A stretch of DNA of 64,000 nt from Opitutus sp. GAS368 (GTDB taxonomy: Bacteria; Verrucomicrobiota; Verrucomicrobiia; Opitutales; Opitutaceae), in contig NZ_LT629735.1 in NCBI RefSeq assembly GCF_900104925.1, forward strand, positions 1,272,291 to 1,336,290, written 5' to 3'. Below the pieces are notes generated by a model. The model was not told where the DNA came from. It saw nothing but the letters and a program-made list of their open reading frames with translations, and did no database searches. Positions 10,552-64,000 of the stretch are shown here, in pieces (the first letter of the stretch is position 1; every line of letters starts with the position of its first letter). The position numbers and the translations under genes were made by a program.

Positions 10552-11598
10552 ATGTTGATTACAGAAATCGCCCACAAGGCACGTGTCTCTCCTGCAACCG
10601 TCTCACGAGCGATCAACCAACCTCAATTGGTCGCGCAAGACAGCCTGGCCCGTATCCGGGCGGTAATGCGGGAACACAACTACGTTCCGGCTCCGGTTAA
10701 CCGCCGCCGCGGACCCAAGGTTCACCGGGCGGAGCAAAAGCGGATTGGGGTGTGGTTCGTCGGGGCCAAGGTCAACAATCCCAGCCTGAATTGGTTTCAG
10801 GACCAGTTGCTGCAGGTGCAGTCCGCCGATTCCAGCTATGGCGTCGACCTGCGCGTGCTCTTCTCCAGCCATCCCGGAGAGTTGCCCCGCAATATCGCGA
10901 ACGAGCAACTTGATGGACTGATCGTCCAGGGCATGGAGCCGTCGCCCGAGTGCCTGGCCCAGCTGCGCGAGATCCCGCACGTCTGGTTCATGACCCGCCG
11001 GTCGGCCGCTTACCCGGGCGACTACGTCGAGCCCAACAATATCGAGAATGGCTGCATGGCGGCCGATTATCTTCATTCCCGCGGCCACAAGTCAGTCGCG
11101 GTCATCTCCACCGACCCGGACTACAGCGCCATTGTCCGCCGCAACGAGGCTTTCGTTGAGCGAGCCACCGCGCTCGGGCTCGCCGTGCATACGATTCTGG
11201 GCCAGGCCAAGCCCGGCGGCACGAGCTATCTGGAAATCGCACCGGTGCACAGCGAAAGCAGCATTCTCGTCCAACGCCTGCTGGAATGCACCCCCAAGGC
11301 CACCGGGCTCTATATTCCGGTGGATCATTTCTGCGGCTCCTTTTTCCGGGCCCTGCGGGAAACAGGCCAAAGGCCCGGCAAGGACTTTGAGGCCGTCCTG
11401 GGCAACTACAATCCGGTCATCTACCACAACCTCGACCACTCGCCCGCGGCGATCGACATCAACCTCCCCATGCTTGTCCGCAAGGTCGTGGATCACCTTC
11501 TCTGGCGCATCGACAATCCCCATGCGGCCGGACGCATCGGCATCATCGTCTCCCCGCGCTTGATCACCCCCGAAGCATCGGGCAGCCGCGCGCGGTAA
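10552..11598 (+). CDS. LacI-family transcriptional regulator
   Basis: 348-aa repressor or activator. The N-terminal helix-turn-helix is ITEIAHKARVSPATVSRAIN, followed by the hinge helix region (SLARIRAVMREHNYVP). The rest (about 65-340) is a periplasmic-binding-protein-like effector domain with VGAKVNN, ENGCMAADYLHSRGHKSVAVIS and GLYIPVDHFCGSFFRALRE, where a sugar effector would bind. It sits 69 bases before the TonB receptor gene and probably controls the receptor and the downstream run to 26793. A palindrome just upstream suggests autoregulation. Confidence 0.93.
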   Translation: MLITEIAHKARVSPATVSRAINQPQLVAQDSLARIRAVMREHNYVPAPVNRRRGPKVHRAEQKRIGVWFVGAKVNNPSLNWFQDQLLQVQSADSSYGVDLRVLFSSHPGELPRNIANEQLDGLIVQGMEPSPECLAQLREIPHVWFMTRRSAAYPGDYVEPNNIENGCMAADYLHSRGHKSVAVISTDPDYSAIVRRNEAFVERATALGLAVHTILGQAKPGGTSYLEIAPVHSESSILVQRLLECTPKATGLYIPVDHFCGSFFRALRETGQRPGKDFEAVLGNYNPVIYHNLDHSPAAIDINLPMLVRKVVDHLLWRIDNPHAAGRIGIIVSPRLITPEASGSRAR

Positions 11599-55411: not shown

Positions 55412-57826
55412 TCAGGCCGGGCCGGCAACCGGCTTGCGCTTCGGCGTGAGAATCGTGAGCCCGGCGATGGATTCCTCGGACGGCGCCGGGAAGAAGAGGC
55501 TCGCCAGGTAGCCGACCACAATGGAGATGAGAATCGAGCACCCGAGATAGAGGAACGGATGCACCAGGTGCAGCCACCAGACGGCGAACGTAACGACGAA
55601 GCTGACGATCATGCCGATCAACACGCCCTGCCAGTTGGCCCGCCGGGTGAACATGCCCAGCGTGTAGGCACCGCCGAAGGCACCGCCAAAGAGCCCGACC
55701 AGCTCGATCGAGGTGTCCAGGAATGAATTGATGCTGAAGCGCGAGAGCAGGATCGCCAGACCGATGCCGATGAGCCCGGCAATCACCGTGACCCACTCCG
55801 CCAGCCGGATGCTGAACGCCTGGCTCGGCTGCTTGGCGATTTTCTCGTAGAAATCCACGGACACCATCGTGGAGACGCTGTTCAGGATGCTGGAGCTCGT
55901 CGCCATGGCGGCGGAAAACAGCCCGGCAATCATCAGGCCGGTTACCCCCGTCGGCAGCTCCGCCGCGATGAACAGCGGAAACGTCGCGTCAATCGGCAGC
56001 AGCGGGTTCATCCTTTCCGGATGGCTGTGGTAAAACACATACAGGCCCGTGCCGATGAGATAGAACAGGGCGCTCGCCGGGATGACCATCACCGCAAACA
56101 CCCAGACCGACCGGCTCGCCTCCTTCTCGGACTTGGTGGTGAACACCCGCTGCATGAGGATCTGGTCCTTGGGAAAAGTCAGGACCGTCTCGAGCAGGGT
56201 CAGGAAGATGAAACACCACACGGTCGCCTTGGTCAGGTCGAAGCTCCAGTCGAACATCTTCATCTTGTCGTCCGCCATCGCTGTCGCCACGAATTCGCCC
56301 GCCCCGCCGTGGAGCCGGGAGATGATGAAACCCACCGCGAAGATCAGGCCGCCGACCTTGACGATGACCTGCGCCAGATCCGTCCAGATCACCGCCCGCA
56401 TGCCGCCCAACGCCGTATAGGCGATGGTGACCAGCCCCATGATCATGATGCTCCAGATCACGTTCAGTCCGGTGATGGTCGCAATGGCGAGCGACGGCAG
56501 GAACAGGATCACACTCAGCCGGCCGCTCATGTGCATCGTGATGCAGAACGCGCTGGCCGCGAGGCGCACCGACTTGTGGAACCGCTGGTCGAGGTAGGTG
56601 AAAACGGACATGAGCTCCAGTCGCCGCAGCAGGGGCACGATCCACACCGCCACGAACATCAGGCCGAGCGCCCCGAAGATGTTGCCCAGCAGATACTGCC
56701 AGTTCGTGGCGAAGGCCTTCGCGGTGGTCGCGATGTAGCCGATGGAACTTGAATTGGTGGCATAGAGGCTGATGCCCGCGGCCCAGAAGGGAATCGTCCG
56801 GCTGCCCACGAAAAAACTCGCGGTCGATTGCTTCTTTTCCCGGCGAAAACAGTAAACCCCGATGCCGGCGATGAGCGCCAGATAGAGGACGATCATGACC
56901 CAGTCGAGCGGCCGGAGCAGAAGCTTGGTCGGTACCAGTTCGACGAGACTCAGGGTGAGCTGCCGGTCGCCGGCCCGGGCGAGAAGAAAGCCGTTGCCCC
57001 ACGCCGCGCCGGGCTGGATCCCGGCGAAGGCTACTTGGCCGAGTTCCGCCCAAACGCGGGTGACCGTGTAATAGGTCACGATCCGCCGCGCCGCGCCGTC
57101 GCCGACCATGCAAAGAATGTGGGCCTGTCCCACGGCCCGCGCCGCCCCGGCGGCGAGCGGCCCGGGCAAGGGCGAGGCCTCGATCCAGGTCCCTCCCGCC
57201 GACCACTGGTGCAGCCGTTGACCGGTGCCGTCTGTGGAAGTCACCACGGCAAAGAGCGAATCCTGCTGGGCCACAAGCGCCTCGACCCGGCCGGCGGCAA
57301 TCCCGGCGTAGGCACTCCAGGCGGGAGCGCCGTCCTTGCGCGACCAGACGAAAAGGCGGCTGACACCGGACTGATCCGTGCCATGGACAAAAACCTTGGC
57401 GTCCTTGACCGCGCCGTGGACGGCCCGCAAGGGCATGGGCAACGCCGGCAACGGGCGGGACGAGAGCTGTCCATCCGTCAACAAAAGCTGGTGGACCTTT
57501 TGTGTCGCGTCGGTCGGGCCGTCCGCCAGCAGCGCAAAGGCCGTCTGGCCGTCCCCGAATACCGCGGTGAGCGTGCCTGCGGGCCGCCACGCCAGCTCCT
57601 GCCAGCTGTTTGCTCCCGTTTGCCTCCAGCCGCGGCCGCCTTCGAGCACGAGGGGAATTCCATCCACCACCGCCAATTGGCTGCCGGCGCCCGCGGTCAC
57701 GCTGCCCTGGTCGGTCAGGCGCACCGGGAGCAGCGGGGCCGCCCCCACCAACGCGGCGCAGCCCAGCGCCAGCAGCAACGCGCCGGTGGTTCTCAGGAAA
57801 CGGAGGGGCTCGGGGGGAATCTTCAC
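55412..57826 (-). CDS. Sodium/solute symporter (SSS) fused to N-terminal beta-propeller
   Basis: About 804 aa. After a hydrophobic signal (about 10-30), residues about 35-305 form Kelch-like blades resembling sialate epimerase (NanM) and are expected to face the periplasm. Residues about 310-800 are an SSS transporter of 13-15 helices, with IALYLALIAGIGVYCF-like first helix, SRTIPFWAAGISLYATNSSSIGYI (Na+-site region) and GLMIAGLFSAAMATSSSILNSVSTM. Fusions of this type are known in sugar and sialate loci. GTG at 57826 is preferred over an upstream TTG. It lies downstream of the TonB receptor gene, beyond its terminator. Confidence 0.9.
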   Translation of the reverse strand: MKIPPEPLRFLRTTGALLLALGCAALVGAAPLLPVRLTDQGSVTAGAGSQLAVVDGIPLVLEGGRGWRQTGANSWQELAWRPAGTLTAVFGDGQTAFALLADGPTDATQKVHQLLLTDGQLSSRPLPALPMPLRAVHGAVKDAKVFVHGTDQSGVSRLFVWSRKDGAPAWSAYAGIAAGRVEALVAQQDSLFAVVTSTDGTGQRLHQWSAGGTWIEASPLPGPLAAGAARAVGQAHILCMVGDGAARRIVTYYTVTRVWAELGQVAFAGIQPGAAWGNGFLLARAGDRQLTLSLVELVPTKLLLRPLDWVMIVLYLALIAGIGVYCFRREKKQSTASFFVGSRTIPFWAAGISLYATNSSSIGYIATTAKAFATNWQYLLGNIFGALGLMFVAVWIVPLLRRLELMSVFTYLDQRFHKSVRLAASAFCITMHMSGRLSVILFLPSLAIATITGLNVIWSIMIMGLVTIAYTALGGMRAVIWTDLAQVIVKVGGLIFAVGFIISRLHGGAGEFVATAMADDKMKMFDWSFDLTKATVWCFIFLTLLETVLTFPKDQILMQRVFTTKSEKEASRSVWVFAVMVIPASALFYLIGTGLYVFYHSHPERMNPLLPIDATFPLFIAAELPTGVTGLMIAGLFSAAMATSSSILNSVSTMVSVDFYEKIAKQPSQAFSIRLAEWVTVIAGLIGIGLAILLSRFSINSFLDTSIELVGLFGGAFGGAYTLGMFTRRANWQGVLIGMIVSFVVTFAVWWLHLVHPFLYLGCSILISIVVGYLASLFFPAPSEESIAGLTILTPKRKPVAGPA

Positions 57827-57898
57827 ACTATGGGCGTTTACCAACTGGCCGTCACGGGAAAGTTACAGCGGCGGCACCGGGCGACACCAACGGGCGGA

Positions 57899-57957
57899 TA
57901 AAAAAACGCCCGATGCCCTCCGGGGCTGAAACACAGTCCGCGGAAAAGCATCGGGCG
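57899..57957 (-). terminator. Terminator of the TonB receptor gene
   Basis: CGCCCGATGC (57907-57916) pairs with GCATCGGGCG (57948-57957); on the minus strand the stem is followed by a run of seven T. The 31-base loop is large. It separates the receptor from the symporter gene. Confidence 0.8.
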
Positions 57958-57983: not shown

Positions 57984-60155
57984 TTAGAACTTCACCACAT
58001 GCGAGATCGAGATCACGCGGCCGCGGCCGGCGAAGTAGTTCTGGAACTGGTCGATCTGGGCCCAGGGCAGGATGTAGTAGTGGTTCAGCAGATTCTCGAC
58101 GCCCAGCGAGAAGTCACCCCACTTCTTGGTGGAGTAGGTCGCCGTGAGGTGCGCGAGGGTGAGCCCGACGGTGTGTTCCTCGCCGGGCGCGCCGATGTTG
58201 ATATCGCGGGAGAAGAGATGCTCCACATCGAGCGTCAGGCTGGCCCGGGGATAGAATTTCCACGTCGAGGACAGGTTGAGTTTGTCGGGGCTGACATTGC
58301 TCATGCCCTGCTGGCGGATGAGCGGGCCGGTATCGGAAGTCCGGGTGTAGCCCGTGGTATGCGAGAAGATCGCCGTGAACTTGAGCGCCGCGTTCATCTT
58401 GTATTCCCCGCTGAACTCGAGGCCGCGCAGCAGGACCGGCCGGCGTTGCAGGATGAAATCCTTGGTCACCGGATCCACCGACAGGCTCGAGCCGAGGTCG
58501 GAATAGGAGCGATAGTAGGAGCCGCTGAAGCTGAACTGTTTGCCGTGCCAGCTTACGCCACCTTCCTTGTTGTCAAAGATCACCGCCTGCAGGTCGACGA
58601 TGCCGTTCACCGTCTGGCCGGGGGTATTCACGTTGCGCAGCGGGATGCCGACGTTCGGCAGCGAGAAGCCCTTGCTGTAGGAACCGAAGACCGACCAGTT
58701 CTGCGGCAGCCGCACGATGACACCCGCATTGGGCAGGGTGCTGCTGTATTCCAGGGTGCCGCCTTTGACAAACGTGTTGTGCGCAAAGTAGACCGTGGTG
58801 TAGTCGTCCACCTGGAGCGTGCCGCCTTCGTGACGCACCCCGCCACTGACGGTAACCGGGCCTTGGGTGTAAGAGGCCTGGGCGAAGGGGGCCTTGCTGG
58901 TGTAATTCATCGGGGGCACCCAGGTGCGCCCCGTGAGCGCGAGCAGTTGCTGGGCCGTTTCATCCATATAGTCGAACCCCGGGGTCAGCTCCAGGCCCGT
59001 GAGCCCAAAAACGTCCTTGCCTGACCAGGAACTCCGCACGCCCTTCTTCTGGGAGTTGATTTCGGACTGATCGATCCCCACGCCCAGCGGAGCCAGGACC
59101 GGATCAGCCTTGTCGGGGGCGACGACCTCGGGGTTGAACCGCATGGCCTGACTGGCCTTGTAGGCCTGGACATTCAGTGACCCGCCGAAAAGAGCGTCGT
59201 TTTTATACGCCAGTGCATACTGGCTGAAATCATTGAACGAGGCTCTCCCTCCGGGCGGCACGCCGCGGATGGCGGAGTCCGTGATGCCCTGCGTGCGGTC
59301 GCCAAGCAACTGAACATAATGTCCCATGCCCTCGATGCGGAACTGGCTGACCGTCAGCGTGAGGCGTTGGGCGTTGTTTTCGCCAAAACTGTGCCCGGCC
59401 TTGATGAACAGATTCTTGGACTGCGTATCGCTGTCGGAACCACTCGCGCCCAAGCCCTGCAGCCGGCCGTTGGCATCGTAAGGCGCGCCGCGTTTCTCAA
59501 AGGCCGCGCCAAAAATCAAATCATTGGCGCCTTCCTTGTGGGTGTAGTTCAGGCCGACCCGGTAGCCATAACTGTCGCTGTAACCCTGGCCGAAGAATTT
59601 GGTGCGCAGGGTGGCTTCGCTGCCATCCTTGGTCGGGCTCTTGGAAATGTAATTGATGATGCCGCCGGCCGCACCGATGCCTTCCGCAGCCGAGGGGCCG
59701 TTGATCACTTCGATCTGCGACACGATGTCCATGTCGGTGAAGGTCGCGTTGCGGCTGCCTTCGCGCAGCGGGGTGGTCTGGGAGATGCCGTCGAAGAGGC
59801 GGAGCGCGACGCGACCGCGCAGGGTCTCACCGGTGTTCTGCATCTGCTGGGTCGCGGGCGCATAGCCGGGCACGGTCCGGGCGAGCACGGCGGTCAGATC
59901 ATCCGAGAGCAGCAGCGCATTGTTGATTTCATCCGGGGAGATCAGGGTGATGGCGCCGGGAATCTGGTCGATCGCCTTGGGCGACCGATAGCCGGTGGTG
60001 ACGGTCAGCTTGTCCAGTTGGACCACATCGGTTTTCTTGTCGTCATCCTTGGCCGCGGCGGTGGTCTGGGCCAGGCCGCGGGTGACGCACGAGACAAGCA
60101 GCAGCGCAGCAAGCAGCGCGGCGGCGGAGTGGGAGCGGGCGGGGTGTTTATTCAT
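57984..60155 (-). CDS. TonB-dependent outer-membrane receptor
   Basis: 723-aa receptor. It has a signal peptide (about 1-30, ending TRGLAQ), a TonB-box-like DVVQLDKLTV, a plug domain (about 55-165; RSPKAIDQIPGAITLISPDEINN, VINGPSAAEGIGAAGGIINYIS) and a barrel ending VISISHVVKF with terminal Phe. ATG at 60155 gives the signal peptide. GCAAACGTTTGC lies 15 bases before the start codon, so a LacI protein would block expression. Sequence style is like catecholate-siderophore receptors, but the control and neighbours point to a sugar ligand. Confidence 0.94.
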   Translation of the reverse strand: MNKHPARSHSAAALLAALLLVSCVTRGLAQTTAAAKDDDKKTDVVQLDKLTVTTGYRSPKAIDQIPGAITLISPDEINNALLLSDDLTAVLARTVPGYAPATQQMQNTGETLRGRVALRLFDGISQTTPLREGSRNATFTDMDIVSQIEVINGPSAAEGIGAAGGIINYISKSPTKDGSEATLRTKFFGQGYSDSYGYRVGLNYTHKEGANDLIFGAAFEKRGAPYDANGRLQGLGASGSDSDTQSKNLFIKAGHSFGENNAQRLTLTVSQFRIEGMGHYVQLLGDRTQGITDSAIRGVPPGGRASFNDFSQYALAYKNDALFGGSLNVQAYKASQAMRFNPEVVAPDKADPVLAPLGVGIDQSEINSQKKGVRSSWSGKDVFGLTGLELTPGFDYMDETAQQLLALTGRTWVPPMNYTSKAPFAQASYTQGPVTVSGGVRHEGGTLQVDDYTTVYFAHNTFVKGGTLEYSSTLPNAGVIVRLPQNWSVFGSYSKGFSLPNVGIPLRNVNTPGQTVNGIVDLQAVIFDNKEGGVSWHGKQFSFSGSYYRSYSDLGSSLSVDPVTKDFILQRRPVLLRGLEFSGEYKMNAALKFTAIFSHTTGYTRTSDTGPLIRQQGMSNVSPDKLNLSSTWKFYPRASLTLDVEHLFSRDINIGAPGEEHTVGLTLAHLTATYSTKKWGDFSLGVENLLNHYYILPWAQIDQFQNYFAGRGRVISISHVVKF

Positions 60156-60170: not shown

Positions 60171-60182
60171 GCAAACGTTTGC
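60171..60182. promoter_or_regulatory. LacI-type operator, copy 1
   Basis: Perfect 12-bp palindrome GCAAACGTTTGC with the central CG typical of LacI-family sites, located 15 bases before the TonB receptor start (minus strand). Confidence 0.8.
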
Positions 60183-60346
60183 GCTTACGGGGAGATTAAC
60201 GGAGAGAAAAGTCAGGGAACAGCCGGGCACGGGTCACCGACGCCCGGAGGGGCGAGGGAGGAGCGGGAGGTGGTTCCGGCGGGACGGCAACAGGGGTAAC
60301 GTGGTTGGCGGACGGGGGTCGGCGGGGTCGCCGGCAAAAAGGATGA

Positions 60347-60358
60347 GCAAACGTTTGC
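60347..60358. promoter_or_regulatory. LacI-type operator, copy 2
   Basis: Identical GCAAACGTTTGC palindrome 67 bases before the GH127-like gene and 191 before the receptor start, in the shared divergent promoter region. Confidence 0.8.
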
Positions 60359-60425
60359 ACGACGAACATTTTGTTTTTAACCCTCGTGTCAACTTTTTTG
60401 TCACCCTACCCTTTCGGCATCCCGC

Positions 60426-62276
60426 ATGCGCCACCCCATGAATTTCCCCTCCCCTGCGCAGGTAAGGCTCAACGGCCTGCTCGGCCGGGCCCTGGCTGCC
60501 AGCCAGACCGCCCACCTTGCCCGCTTCATCCAGGACAAGGACAGTCCGCCGATCGCCCTCTTTTGCCCCCAGCACACGGCGCATAACCACGAGGGCGACT
60601 GGTATGGCGAACATGCCGGCAAGTGGCTCTGCGCCGCCGCGCAGGCCGTGGAACGCACCGGCGACCCCCGGTTGGAATCCAGCTTGCGCCGCGTCGCCGA
60701 CTACCTGGTGAGCGTGCAGGACGCCGCAGGTTACCTGGGCACCTATGCCCCTGCCCGGCGTTTCATGTGCCGGCAGGTGGCGGGCCCGCGCACGTGGGAC
60801 GGCGCTCCCGGCCAGCGCACCTGGGATATCTGGGTCCACAGCTATCTCATCCTCGGCTTGCTCGCGGCCGGGCGGGTCCTCGCCCAACCCGGTTACATCG
60901 CCGCGGCGCGAAAGATTGGCGATCTCTGCTGGCGGACGCTCAGCGAGGGCGGCATCGCCATCACTTCGCTCGGAAATCACCACGGCCTCTCGGCCACCGT
61001 GCTGCTGGATCCGGCGGTGGAACTTTACCTGGTGACCCGGGAGCCGAGATATCTCGAGCTCGCCAAACTCATCCTGCAGCAGGCGAACGAAGCCCCCGCC
61101 CTCGAGCTGTTGCCGCAGATCCTCGGCGGCGCCGACGCCGCTTTCATCGCCACGGGCAAGGCCTACCAACTGTCGTGGAATCTGGTCGGGCTGGCCAAGC
61201 TCTACCGGGCGACCGGCGAACCCGGTTACCTGCAGGCCGTGCAGCAGGTATGGGAGAGCATCCGGCAGCATCACCTGACCCTCGGGGGCGGTCCGTGGGG
61301 CGGCGTGGCCCACCGGTCCCGCGAAGTCTTCAATCCGCCGCACGTCTTCAGCCCCTACGGCTACGTCGAGACCTGTTCCACTTTTTCCTGGATCCAGCTC
61401 AACCGCGAGCTCCTCGCCCTGACCGGCGAGGCCCGGTATGCCGACGAGATTGAGAAATCCGCCTACAACGACCTGCTCGGCGCCCAGGCGCCGGACGGTG
61501 ACAACTGGTGCTACTATTCATTCCCTAACGGCAAGCGGGTGTTCACCACCTACTGGCGCTGCTGCAAGTCGAGCGGCCCCTGGGCCCTCGAGGAACTGCC
61601 CCCGATCGCCTATGGTGTGACGGGTGAAGGTCATCTCACCGTCAACCTTTACGGCCCGGGCCAGGTCACCCTGACGTCGCCGTTCGCCGGTGCCGTCCGG
61701 CTCGAGCAAGTCACGCGCTATCCATTCGAGGGCGACATTCGGATCACGGTTGAACCGGAGCGGTCCGCGAAATTCGCGATCCTGCTGCGCGTTCCCGGCT
61801 GGGCGGAGCAGGCGGTCATTCAAGTCAACGGCGCGGTGGTTGCTGTCCCCGCCCGGCCCAATTCCTTCGCCGCGCTCGAACAAGTCTGGCAATCGGGCGA
61901 TGTCATCACCCTGCAGCTGCCGATGCCGCCGCGGCTGCACCGGCAAGTGAATCGCAATCTCCAGGAATCGCGCACCCCGGACGGCTCGCCGGTCAGTCAG
62001 GAAGTGCTGCATTTCGATTACGCCGCGATCACGCGCGGCCCGCTGGTTTATGCCACCGGCCTGATCGATGGTTTCAAGAGCGAGGAGACCATCCGCCTGC
62101 CGTCCAAGCCCGAGGCGGCGCTCGAGCTGCTCGACCCACCCGCGGGCAGCGAGGCCCGGGCCGTGCGGCTCAACCTCGGCTATCGGCCCCCTCTGACCTT
62201 CAGTCCGTATTTCGAGGCGGGGGGGCGGGCCGATGGCGCCTGGCGCCTCACCTGGCTGCAAATCGCCCCCGGGTAA
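60426..62276 (+). CDS. GH127-like beta-L-arabinofuranosidase family protein (diverged)
   Basis: 616-aa protein of the GH127/DUF1680 superfamily. The barrel shows DYLVSVQDAAGYLGTY and a CHExY-like region replaced by TWDIWVHSYLILGL. Zn-site residues remain as Glu315-x-Cys317 in VETCSTFSW and Cys379-Cys380 in YWRCCKSSG. The sequence differs widely from the GH127 protein at 1-1844, and may belong to a related family such as GH146. No signal peptide was seen, so it is probably cytosolic. ATG at 60426 or 60438 both fit. It is divergent from the receptor under shared operators. Confidence 0.86.
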   Translation: MRHPMNFPSPAQVRLNGLLGRALAASQTAHLARFIQDKDSPPIALFCPQHTAHNHEGDWYGEHAGKWLCAAAQAVERTGDPRLESSLRRVADYLVSVQDAAGYLGTYAPARRFMCRQVAGPRTWDGAPGQRTWDIWVHSYLILGLLAAGRVLAQPGYIAAARKIGDLCWRTLSEGGIAITSLGNHHGLSATVLLDPAVELYLVTREPRYLELAKLILQQANEAPALELLPQILGGADAAFIATGKAYQLSWNLVGLAKLYRATGEPGYLQAVQQVWESIRQHHLTLGGGPWGGVAHRSREVFNPPHVFSPYGYVETCSTFSWIQLNRELLALTGEARYADEIEKSAYNDLLGAQAPDGDNWCYYSFPNGKRVFTTYWRCCKSSGPWALEELPPIAYGVTGEGHLTVNLYGPGQVTLTSPFAGAVRLEQVTRYPFEGDIRITVEPERSAKFAILLRVPGWAEQAVIQVNGAVVAVPARPNSFAALEQVWQSGDVITLQLPMPPRLHRQVNRNLQESRTPDGSPVSQEVLHFDYAAITRGPLVYATGLIDGFKSEETIRLPSKPEAALELLDPPAGSEARAVRLNLGYRPPLTFSPYFEAGGRADGAWRLTWLQIAPG

Positions 62277-62294
62277 GCTGGCCGCGGGCGGTCT

Positions 62295-63260
62295 TCAGGC
62301 CGCCCCGGTCTTCCGTAGGAAACGCTGCAGCTCGGACCGGGTCGGCATCGCAAAAGCGGCACCGGGCTTGGTGATCGACAGCGCCGCCACCGCCGTGCCA
62401 AGGCGGGCCGCCGCGACGACCTCCCCCTTGTGGCGGACCAACCCCGCCGCGAAACCGCCGCAAAACGCGTCGCCCGCGCCGGTCGTGTCCACGACCCGCA
62501 TGCCCCGGTGGGCCGGGATGAAATGATGGCCGCTCCGCTCCGAGATGAAGCAGCCCCGGCGGCCGAGGGTCACGATGAGCGTTGGCACGCCAAGCTGGCG
62601 GCACAATCCGTGCAGCGCTTCGCGGGGCATGGCCTGCAGCGCCCGTTCATCGAAGCCGCGCCGGCGGATGCCCGGCAAGGCCCGGACCAGCGCCACAAAT
62701 TCGCTTTCATTCGGAATCAGGATGTCGACATGCCGCAGCAGCGCGGGGCCAAAATCAGTCCGCATCGGCGCCGGATTCAAAATGGTCGTCACCCCCGCCT
62801 GCCGCGCGACCCGGAGCACATGGGCCGTGGTCGCGAGGTTTGATTCCAGCTGGGTCACCACCACCCGGGCCTTGGCCAGCAGCGACCGCGGCACATCGGC
62901 CGGGGCCAGCGCGGCGTTGGCGCCCGGCTCGATCACAATCTGGTTCTGGCCCTCGCGGTTGAGCAGGATCACCGCGGTACCCGTGGATTGGCCGGCCTTG
63001 AGGACCAGGTGACAGCCGATTTTTTCCCGCCGGTAGAAGGCCGTCACCTGGCCGGCGAACCCATCCCGGCCCATGGCGCCGATGAAGACGGTTTTCATCC
63101 CCGTCCGGCCGCACGCGATGGCCTGGTTGGATCCCTTGCCGCCCTGCCCGCCGGCCAGCCGGGCCATGATCGTCTCCCCCGCCCGGGGAAATTCCGCGCA
63201 GGCAAAGGTCAGGTCCTGCATGATGCTGCCGACGACGACGACCTGGGGTGAAGGAGGCAT
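62295..63260 (-). CDS. PfkB-family sugar kinase (ribokinase-like)
   Basis: 321-aa kinase. N-terminal VVVVGSIMQDLTFACAEFPRAGETI and GGQGGKGSNQAIACGRTG (the GGKGxNQA ribokinase block) bind the sugar. The C-terminal signature DTTGAGDAFCGGFAAGL has the catalytic Asp and anion hole. ILNPAPMRTDFG and IPNESEFVAL are the typical middle segments. ATG at 63260 gives the usual start. It likely phosphorylates the monosaccharide released by the nearby GH127-like enzyme. An operator palindrome lies 72 bases upstream. Confidence 0.92.
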   Translation of the reverse strand: MPPSPQVVVVGSIMQDLTFACAEFPRAGETIMARLAGGQGGKGSNQAIACGRTGMKTVFIGAMGRDGFAGQVTAFYRREKIGCHLVLKAGQSTGTAVILLNREGQNQIVIEPGANAALAPADVPRSLLAKARVVVTQLESNLATTAHVLRVARQAGVTTILNPAPMRTDFGPALLRHVDILIPNESEFVALVRALPGIRRRGFDERALQAMPREALHGLCRQLGVPTLIVTLGRRGCFISERSGHHFIPAHRGMRVVDTTGAGDAFCGGFAAGLVRHKGEVVAAARLGTAVAALSITKPGAAFAMPTRSELQRFLRKTGAA

Positions 63261-63332
63261 GGAAAGCGGAAGAGGGGCTGCGCGGGGGCCGGGGGGCTTG
63301 CGCGATTCAGGGCAAAAGGGGTGCAACGTCAT

Positions 63333-63344
63333 GCAAACGTTTGC
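63333..63344. promoter_or_regulatory. LacI-type operator, copy 3
   Basis: Third identical GCAAACGTTTGC, here inside the longer palindrome ATGCAAACGTTTGCAT (63331-63346). It lies between the LacI gene stop and the kinase start, on the kinase's promoter side. Confidence 0.8.
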
Positions 63345-63379
63345 ATGTGCGTTGCGTCAAGCGAAACCTTTCCGGGCGC

Positions 63380-64000
63380 TCAGCAGGACTTCCGGATGAT
63401 CAGCTCGGGCATGAGCTTGAGGCTTGTGGCCGGACGCTTGGCATCCTCGATGCGCTTCAGCAGCAGTTCGGCCGCATACTTGCCCACCTCGTAGGCCGGC
63501 TGGCGGACGACGGTGAGCGGCGGGTTGAACACGCTCGACAGCGGCAGCTCATCAAAGCCCACGATGCCGACCTGCTTGGGAATCTTCAGGCCGCGCGCGG
63601 CAATGGCCTCGAGCGCCCCGGCCGTCATCAGGCCGTTGCACGCAAACAGCGCCGTGGGCGGATCGGCGAGCGAGAGGAGTTCGTGCGCCAGGGTTTGCCC
63701 GCTCTCCTGCTTGAAGTCGCCGAAGCGGATCAGCTCCGCCTTGATCGGCAGCCCGGCCTGGGTGTGCGCGTCCTTGTAGCCGCGCAGGCGCTCCCGTCCC
63801 GTCGAGGAATCCGCGGGGCCGCCAATCAGGCCGATGCGCTTGTGCCCCTGGGCGATGATGTGCTCGACCGCCTTCAGGGCGCCCGTGTGGTTGTCCACCT
63901 CCACCTTGTCGAGGTTTCCGCTCGAGAGACTGCGGTCGACGCAGACCACCGGGATGCCGTTGCGCACCACCTGCAGCACCGCGGGATCATTCTCATGGAT
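63380..64000 (-). CDS. LacI-family regulator, 5' end outside the window
   Basis: C-terminal 206 residues of a LacI/GalR regulator; the frame stays open to the window edge, so the helix-turn-helix is not seen. The effector domain shows GIPVVCVDRSL, GHKRIGLIGGPADSSTGRERLRGY, PPTALFACNGLMTAGALEA, VGIVGFDELPLSSVFNPPLT and the final KLMPELIIRKSC, all standard. It ends 119 bases before the kinase start and is the obvious owner of the three GCAAACGTTTGC operators. Confidence 0.93.
   Translation of the reverse strand: MHENDPAVLQVVRNGIPVVCVDRSLSSGNLDKVEVDNHTGALKAVEHIIAQGHKRIGLIGGPADSSTGRERLRGYKDAHTQAGLPIKAELIRFGDFKQESGQTLAHELLSLADPPTALFACNGLMTAGALEAIAARGLKIPKQVGIVGFDELPLSSVFNPPLTVVRQPAYEVGKYAAELLLKRIEDAKRPATSLKLMPELIIRKSC

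Follow-up and report, generated by a model that had tools for sequence, protein, structure and literature searches.

What do the three identical 12-bp palindromes control that stand beside a lacI-family gene near the end of a 64,000-nucleotide stretch of the Opitutus sp. GAS368 genome (contig NZ_LT629735.1, positions 1,272,291 to 1,336,290 of the forward strand; the whole stretch is called the window below)? A first-pass annotation of the window had taken the copies of GCAAACGTTTGC at 60171, 60347 and 63333 for LacI operators that define a small regulon, and had judged such a threefold match very unlikely to arise by chance. All three copies are exact, and the window contains no other exact copy. 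A scan of the whole genome (a single contig of 4,150,783 bp) returned four exact copies in total, the additional one being located at C1:1336781-1336792, 491 bp beyond the window end. The four copies fall in a 4.3-kb stretch inside the gene cluster and no exact copy lies outside it, so that the scan did not reveal the genome-wide spread of the palindrome that would speak against a regulon. From base composition (window GC content 0.657) 0.13 exact copies are expected per genome, and the reversed pattern, used as a control, has 0 exact copies genome-wide, in agreement with the earlier judgement on chance. The proposed regulon is thus retained, with four sites instead of three, the fourth reaching a divergent operon beyond the window. 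The four palindromes very likely serve as operators for the LacI-family repressor whose gene lies in this cluster.

Relaxing the search adds little. With one mismatch allowed, the genome contains three further places compared with two for the reversed control. Two of the three sit within open reading frames (ORFs) of 578 and 347 amino acids, and the third, GCAAACGTGTGC at C1:3203331-3203342 (L008:1501), lies 36 bp upstream of another lacI-family ORF and is itself overlapped by a mechanically called 326-amino acid ORF. With up to two mismatches the window holds six sites, which is not above chance (7 of 100 shuffles reach six); the signal therefore resides in the exact copies, and evidence was restricted to exact or one-mismatch sites. 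The three window copies are intergenic, as the first-pass annotation had them, when ATG 60155 is taken as the receptor start and ATG 63260 as the kinase start. We chose these over earlier start codons in the ORF list; with the first listed starts (GTG 60230 and ATG 63332, respectively), the receptor ORF would take in site A, and site C would immediately precede the kinase ORF. The coordinates of all features are collected in Table 1.

Table 1. Operators, candidate promoter and terminator elements, and genes of the cluster. Positions are those of the window; window-equivalent positions continue the numbering beyond its end.
Feature	Coordinates	Strand	Remarks
Operator A	60171..60182		GCAAACGTTTGC; 15 nt before receptor ATG 60155 (minus strand)
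Operator B	60347..60358		GCAAACGTTTGC; between receptor and GH127-like gene, 67 nt before ATG 60426
Operator C	63333..63344		GCAAACGTTTGC; 72 nt before kinase ATG 63260
Fourth operator	window-equivalent 64491-64502		between lacI (106 bp to ATG) and divergent operon (102 bp)
TTGACA hexamer	60387..60392	minus	candidate -35 toward receptor; would place operator B at about the transcription start
TTGACG hexamer	63355..63360	minus	candidate kinase -35; operator C would overlap spacer and -10
Terminator-like hairpin	57907..57957	minus	between receptor and symporter; predicted -33.8 kcal/mol (best of a scan, without shuffled control), then TTTTTTTA (seven T)
Sodium:solute symporter	55412..57844	minus	PF00474 above cut-off; adjoins receptor, no operator
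TonB-dependent receptor	57984..60155	minus	PF00593 and PF07715 above cut-off
GH127-like (beta-L-arabinofuranosidase family) enzyme	60426..62276	plus	PF07944 and PF20736 above cut-off
PfkB/ribokinase-like sugar kinase	62295..63260	minus	PF00294 above cut-off
lacI-family repressor, 3' part	63380..64000	minus	334 amino acids; start at window-equivalent 64384, outside window
Divergent operon	window-equivalent 64605-71751 (L005:9896-17042)	opposite to lacI	beyond window

The form of the element is that of a LacI-family operator. When 52 sites picked by the 12-mer were compared, the base two positions outside it, a column not used in picking, was a purine (G or A) on the left in 51 sites and a pyrimidine (T or C) on the right in all 52, the single exception being the kinase site of locus L052. 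With these outer columns the operator comprises no less than 16 bp, RNGCAAACGTTTGCNY, and as an even palindrome centred on CG it has the classical LacI-family form. In an alignment of 39 of the 52 sites the mean information is 0.46–0.82 bit in the flanks and about 2 bits in the core. The way the sites were selected accounts in part for the uniformity of the inner 12 bases, but not for their reappearance at the same four places. As described in the cited parts of a survey of more than 1,300 LacI-family regulators (PMC4052901), operators of this family are even palindromes of 16–22 nt with a central CG, 72% of the regulators are self-regulated, and more than 75% of the operators, though not all, lie 30–140 bp upstream. 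The distances to the ATG observed here are 67 bp for the GH127-like gene, 72 bp for the kinase, 106 bp for lacI and 102 bp for the divergent operon.

The arrangement recurs in related genomes. A search with the GH127-like protein led to 17 loci: ten from Opitutia, L010 (a short contig of a metagenome-assembled genome labelled Gammaproteobacteria), two from Massilia, one each from Luteimonas, Sphingomonas and Solibacter, and a betaproteobacterial fragment. The ten Opitutia loci and L010 share the layout of the window as far as their contigs extend; L010 carries this Opitutia-type cluster at 80% identity despite its label, perhaps through a binning error. Together with the window's own locus and two more from relatives (L052 and L053) these 11 make up a set of 14 loci, which are not all independent: L012 is almost a copy of L013, with no difference around site B, and L013 shares its genome with L009. 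Site B is present in all 14 (13 exact, one with one mismatch), including L052, where no GH127 gene was found, and so is site C (11 exact, three with one mismatch). Site A is present in 12 of the 14 (ten exact, two with one mismatch); between the receptor and the GH127-like gene, L015 and L024 have just one site each, which was counted as B. The site between lacI and the divergent operon occurs in 12 of 13 loci (11 exact), the L010 contig being without lacI. As the earlier annotation had remarked for the window, the symporter lacks a copy, and this holds for all 12 loci that carry the symporter, where no site with up to two mismatches was found from -350 to +100 nt of its start.

Comparison of 57 genomes (our own and 56 relatives) ties the sequence to the repressor gene. 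Seven carry a lacI orthologue of at least 86% identity, and all seven have exact GCAAACGTTTGC at the locus. Of the 29 exact copies in these seven genomes, 27 are inside the cluster; the two strays are L056:8338, directly after another lacI, and a copy in an ORF of L057. In the remaining 50 genomes 12 exact copies are spread over ten genomes; the reversed control has 14 copies across all 57. Eight of these 12 are inside mechanically called ORFs of at least 120 amino acids, and four lie between ORFs on stretches that also bear a 24–28% identical lacI: three in L051 (3266, 9059 and 17640), 1 to 15 kb from that lacI, and one at L059:7407, directly after it. In the relatives L051, L056 and L059 the same 12-mer thus accompanies other lacI paralogues, as if several LacI proteins share one operator core. 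The genomes of loci L014, L016, L018 and L024 (lacI at least 83% identical) contain four, four, four and five exact copies, respectively, two of the five in L024 being in ORFs outside the cluster. Beyond the Opitutia, the only exact copy of Massilia norwichensis is located between a lacI of 36% identity and the kinase gene of a rearranged cluster, and M. polaris has two overlapping one-mismatch copies, 12 bp apart, between lacI and the kinase gene; together these (L073:5110-5133) make one 24-bp perfect palindrome. At the Solibacter locus a lacI of 41% identity is found about 9 kb from the GH127-like gene, and the genome contains no exact copy; the sole exact copy in the Sphingomonas genome is inside ORFs on another contig. 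The link of the gene set with LacI and the operator is therefore seen in two phyla, but not in every genome that has the gene set.

The surroundings of the operators suggest which promoters they may serve. An exact TTGACA on the receptor-ward strand precedes site B by 28–31 nt in 14 of 14 loci, compared with a background of 0.26% of 50-nt windows (determined in six of these loci). The first-pass annotation had assigned site B to the GH127-like gene; this site probably serves the receptor at least as much. Around site A no TTGACA-like hexamer (up to one mismatch) was found within 50 nt on either side in any of the 11 loci checked, and site A is probably an auxiliary or second site in the receptor leader. 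A fixed DNA loop between A and B is not supported, because the start-to-start distance varies among the 12 loci with both sites (176, 176, 147, 99, 100, 147, 192, 180, 178, 142, 132 and 195 bp), division by 10.5 (by hand) reveals no fixed helical phase, and two loci are without site A. Before the kinase operator TTGAC[GC] is present in all 14 loci, at 10 nt in 11 of them, 15 nt in L012 and L013 and 16 nt in L014. At the lacI divergon, 11 of 12 loci have a hexamer directed toward the catabolic operon, 15–16 nt ahead of the operator; it reads TAGACA in ten and TCGACA in one, and L018 has none. In seven of 12 loci the receptor-ward TTGACA is preceded, 12 nt away, by another TGACA-like hexamer (window 60387-60404), perhaps the site of a second regulator.

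With these elements the regulon would work as follows. When no inducer is present, a LacI dimer would sit on RNGCAAACGTTTGCNY at the four places. At site B it would cover the start of the receptor-ward promoter as a simple blocking operator while also lying upstream of the GH127-like gene, and at site A it would be bound in the receptor leader. At site C it would lie over the kinase promoter, the kinase and divergon operators both overlapping the -10 region, and the fourth site would put it between the divergent catabolic operon and lacI, with its own gene perhaps also under its control. The inducer would be derived from the incoming glycoside, either as a sugar or as a sugar phosphate, and the release of the repressor would switch on uptake, hydrolysis and phosphorylation together with the downstream operon. 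The symporter is probably transcribed apart from the receptor or through partial read-through, since a terminator-like hairpin lies between the two genes. A shorter version of this hairpin was one of three terminator-like sites in a separate scan, where shuffles average 4.8. Similar hairpins between receptor and symporter are present in seven of nine assessable loci and were not found in L015 and L016; L018, L024 and L053, with a computed gap of 0–10 nt, were not assessable.

The adjacent LacI as regulator, which the earlier annotation had considered natural, is supported by the restriction of the sites to the cluster, their recurrence in 14 loci, their co-occurrence with lacI and the classical form of the motif. 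Because GCAAACGTTTGC is a generic LacI-family operator, with PurR and MalR sites of this kind in print, the sequence alone names no regulator, and the main regulator could be another LacI-family protein, or two paralogues could share the sites. The genome holds nine LacI-type helix-turn-helix domains, one of which lies in the window itself (10558-10689) and has a hinge that departs from the classical ARxL. An STVSR recognition helix is combined with an ARxL hinge in the cluster LacI and C1:3203115 only, the other seven paralogues lacking such a hinge; in PurR structures the hinge leucine enters the central CG step. The sites, moreover, follow the orthologue of the cluster lacI across genomes, apart from L010 and L015, and one of them lies upstream of the cluster lacI itself, which makes control by another paralogue improbable. 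A PurR-type purine regulon is hardly credible, even though the cited part of PMC3739930 gives the identical core in predicted H. influenzae PurR sites, the RegPrecise PurR consensus ACGCAAACGTTTGCGT, as quoted in PMC4576408, contains it, and the Massilia regulators score best against the PurR and RbsR models, though below cut-off. No exact site lies outside the cluster, hence none at purine genes, and the cluster LacI reaches 233.1 bits on the PurR model, whose cut-off is 501, no better than on CytR or RbsR. That the palindromes are conserved for another reason, as an RNA hairpin, a DNA-structure element or the site of another factor, is very unlikely: an RNA element could act at site A, close as it is to the receptor start codon, yet the same sequence stands at four places at differing distances from the genes, its presence tracks lacI, and the RNA hairpin would by inspection have just four pairs and a 4-nt loop.

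Several observations weigh against control by the cluster LacI as set out above. C1:3203115 shares both the recognition helix and the hinge and has the one-mismatch copy upstream; GCAAACGTGTGC is possibly its self-operator, and slight cross-talk is possible. In relatives the same 12-mer lies beside other lacI paralogues, and the sequence by itself is thus no proof of the regulator. The genome of L015 (lacI at least 83% identical) has one-mismatch sites only and no exact copy, and no site was found in the 205 nt visible upstream of its lacI. In the genome of L010 three exact copies occur with no lacI match; lacI would be expected beyond site C, but the contig extends only 81 bp further there. 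In the stretches fetched, neither the site nor lacI was seen in the clusters of Luteimonas and Sphingomonas. Site A, moreover, lies closer to its start codon than the range usual for operators of the family. As for the promoters, as many as 7.8% of 50-nt windows contain a hexamer that differs from TTGACA by at most one base, so that for the kinase and the divergon it is the constant spacing that speaks, not the hexamer alone. No conserved TTGACA-like hexamer was found toward the GH127-like gene across site B (three of 12 loci) or toward lacI across the fourth site (none of 11), and these two promoters were therefore not identified. A sigma-70 consensus scan returned no promoter, and no convincing -10 box was found, with at most three of six positions matching; we therefore infer only -35-like hexamers.

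The genes brought together by the operators point to sugar metabolism. The full LacI protein matches PF00356 (helix-turn-helix, 58.7 bits), PF13377 and PF00532, all above cut-off, and pairs the LacI DNA-binding domain with a periplasmic-binding-protein-like (sugar-binding) effector domain. It stays below cut-off for every named LacI-family model it matched, with CytR, RbsR and PurR nearly equal: the best NCBIfam models are CytR with 239 bits and RbsR with 238.7 bits, and against the two RbsR models it reaches 238.7 of 382 and 232.4 of 531 bits, so that it is not assigned to RbsR. At L071:9247-12652 a 62–63% identical LacI lies beside a probable nucleoside hydrolase, named by us from its N-terminus, and a ribokinase-like gene, with GAAAACGTTTGC between them; this arrangement hints at a ribose-type ancestry of the cluster repressor. 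The kinase scores 260.8 bits against the TIGR02152 ribokinase model, below its cut-off of 299.65. For the GH127-like protein, in which no signal peptide was seen by eye, the best NCBIfam model is aceric acid hydrolase, but at 131.6 bits it is far below the cut-off of 950 and aceric acid was not adopted as substrate. Through the fourth site the regulon would also take in the divergent operon. This operon encodes a protein with a C-terminal FGE-sulfatase domain, a GH13-like protein, a CitE-like lyase, a family III (CaiB-like) CoA-transferase and a BT1-type MFS transporter; a search of PDB sequences with the N-terminal 465 amino acids of the FGE-domain protein returned nothing up to E 1.

Only tentatively do we suggest that the operators outline an undescribed catabolic pathway common to Opitutia and, in rearranged form, to Massilia and other Proteobacteria. 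A furanoside would enter through the receptor and the symporter and be cut intracellularly by the GH127-like enzyme, the released sugar would be phosphorylated by the ribokinase-like kinase, and the CaiB-like CoA-transferase would activate an acid part, which the CitE-like lyase would then split. One LacI would be in control in Opitutia and Massilia, with an inducer derived from the pathway substrate. The analysis replaces a guess made from the raw sequence by a well-bounded regulon whose motif has been tested, and it links the genes of a set that recurs in two phyla. Of more interest is the substrate of this gene set, on which the regulator and its operators offer a direct handle by way of an inducer screen.

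A literature search found no paper on such a LacI regulon in this phylum, and the searches made gave no description of the combination of GH127-like, FGE-domain, CitE-like and CaiB-like proteins. The survey in PMC4052901 covers seven phyla, and the string 'Verrucomicrob' is absent from its main text. Among known systems, the PurR box of gamma-proteobacteria has the same GCAAACGTTTGC core, e.g. AAGCAAACGTTTGCGA in PMC3739930; the core is also found within the PurR consensus and site lists of PMC4576408 and PMC2585596, as cited. The PurR sites in the list of PMC3739930 are mostly at purine genes, whereas here all lie in one sugar cluster whose LacI fails the PurR model. The MalR operator of Streptococcus pneumoniae, given as CGCAAACGTTTGCGT in the cited part of PMC4451989, has the same core and also belongs to a sugar regulon, but its targets are the maltose genes of a Firmicute, a different gene set. 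With LacI regulators of the RbsR/CytR type that accompany a ribokinase, our system shares the best-scoring models, although below cut-off, and a ribokinase-like kinase; unlike those systems, the named cluster genes include no ribose transporter and instead encode a TonB receptor, a GH127-like enzyme and acyl-CoA-type enzymes. The overall likeness is to the local LacI-family sugar regulons described in PMC4052901, with which it has in common the even CG-centred palindrome, an operator upstream of the regulator gene, adjoining transport and catabolic genes and, for three of the four sites but not for site A, a position 30–140 bp upstream. As reconstructed here, it is an ordinary autoregulated local LacI regulon of a well-known kind that is new in its detail.

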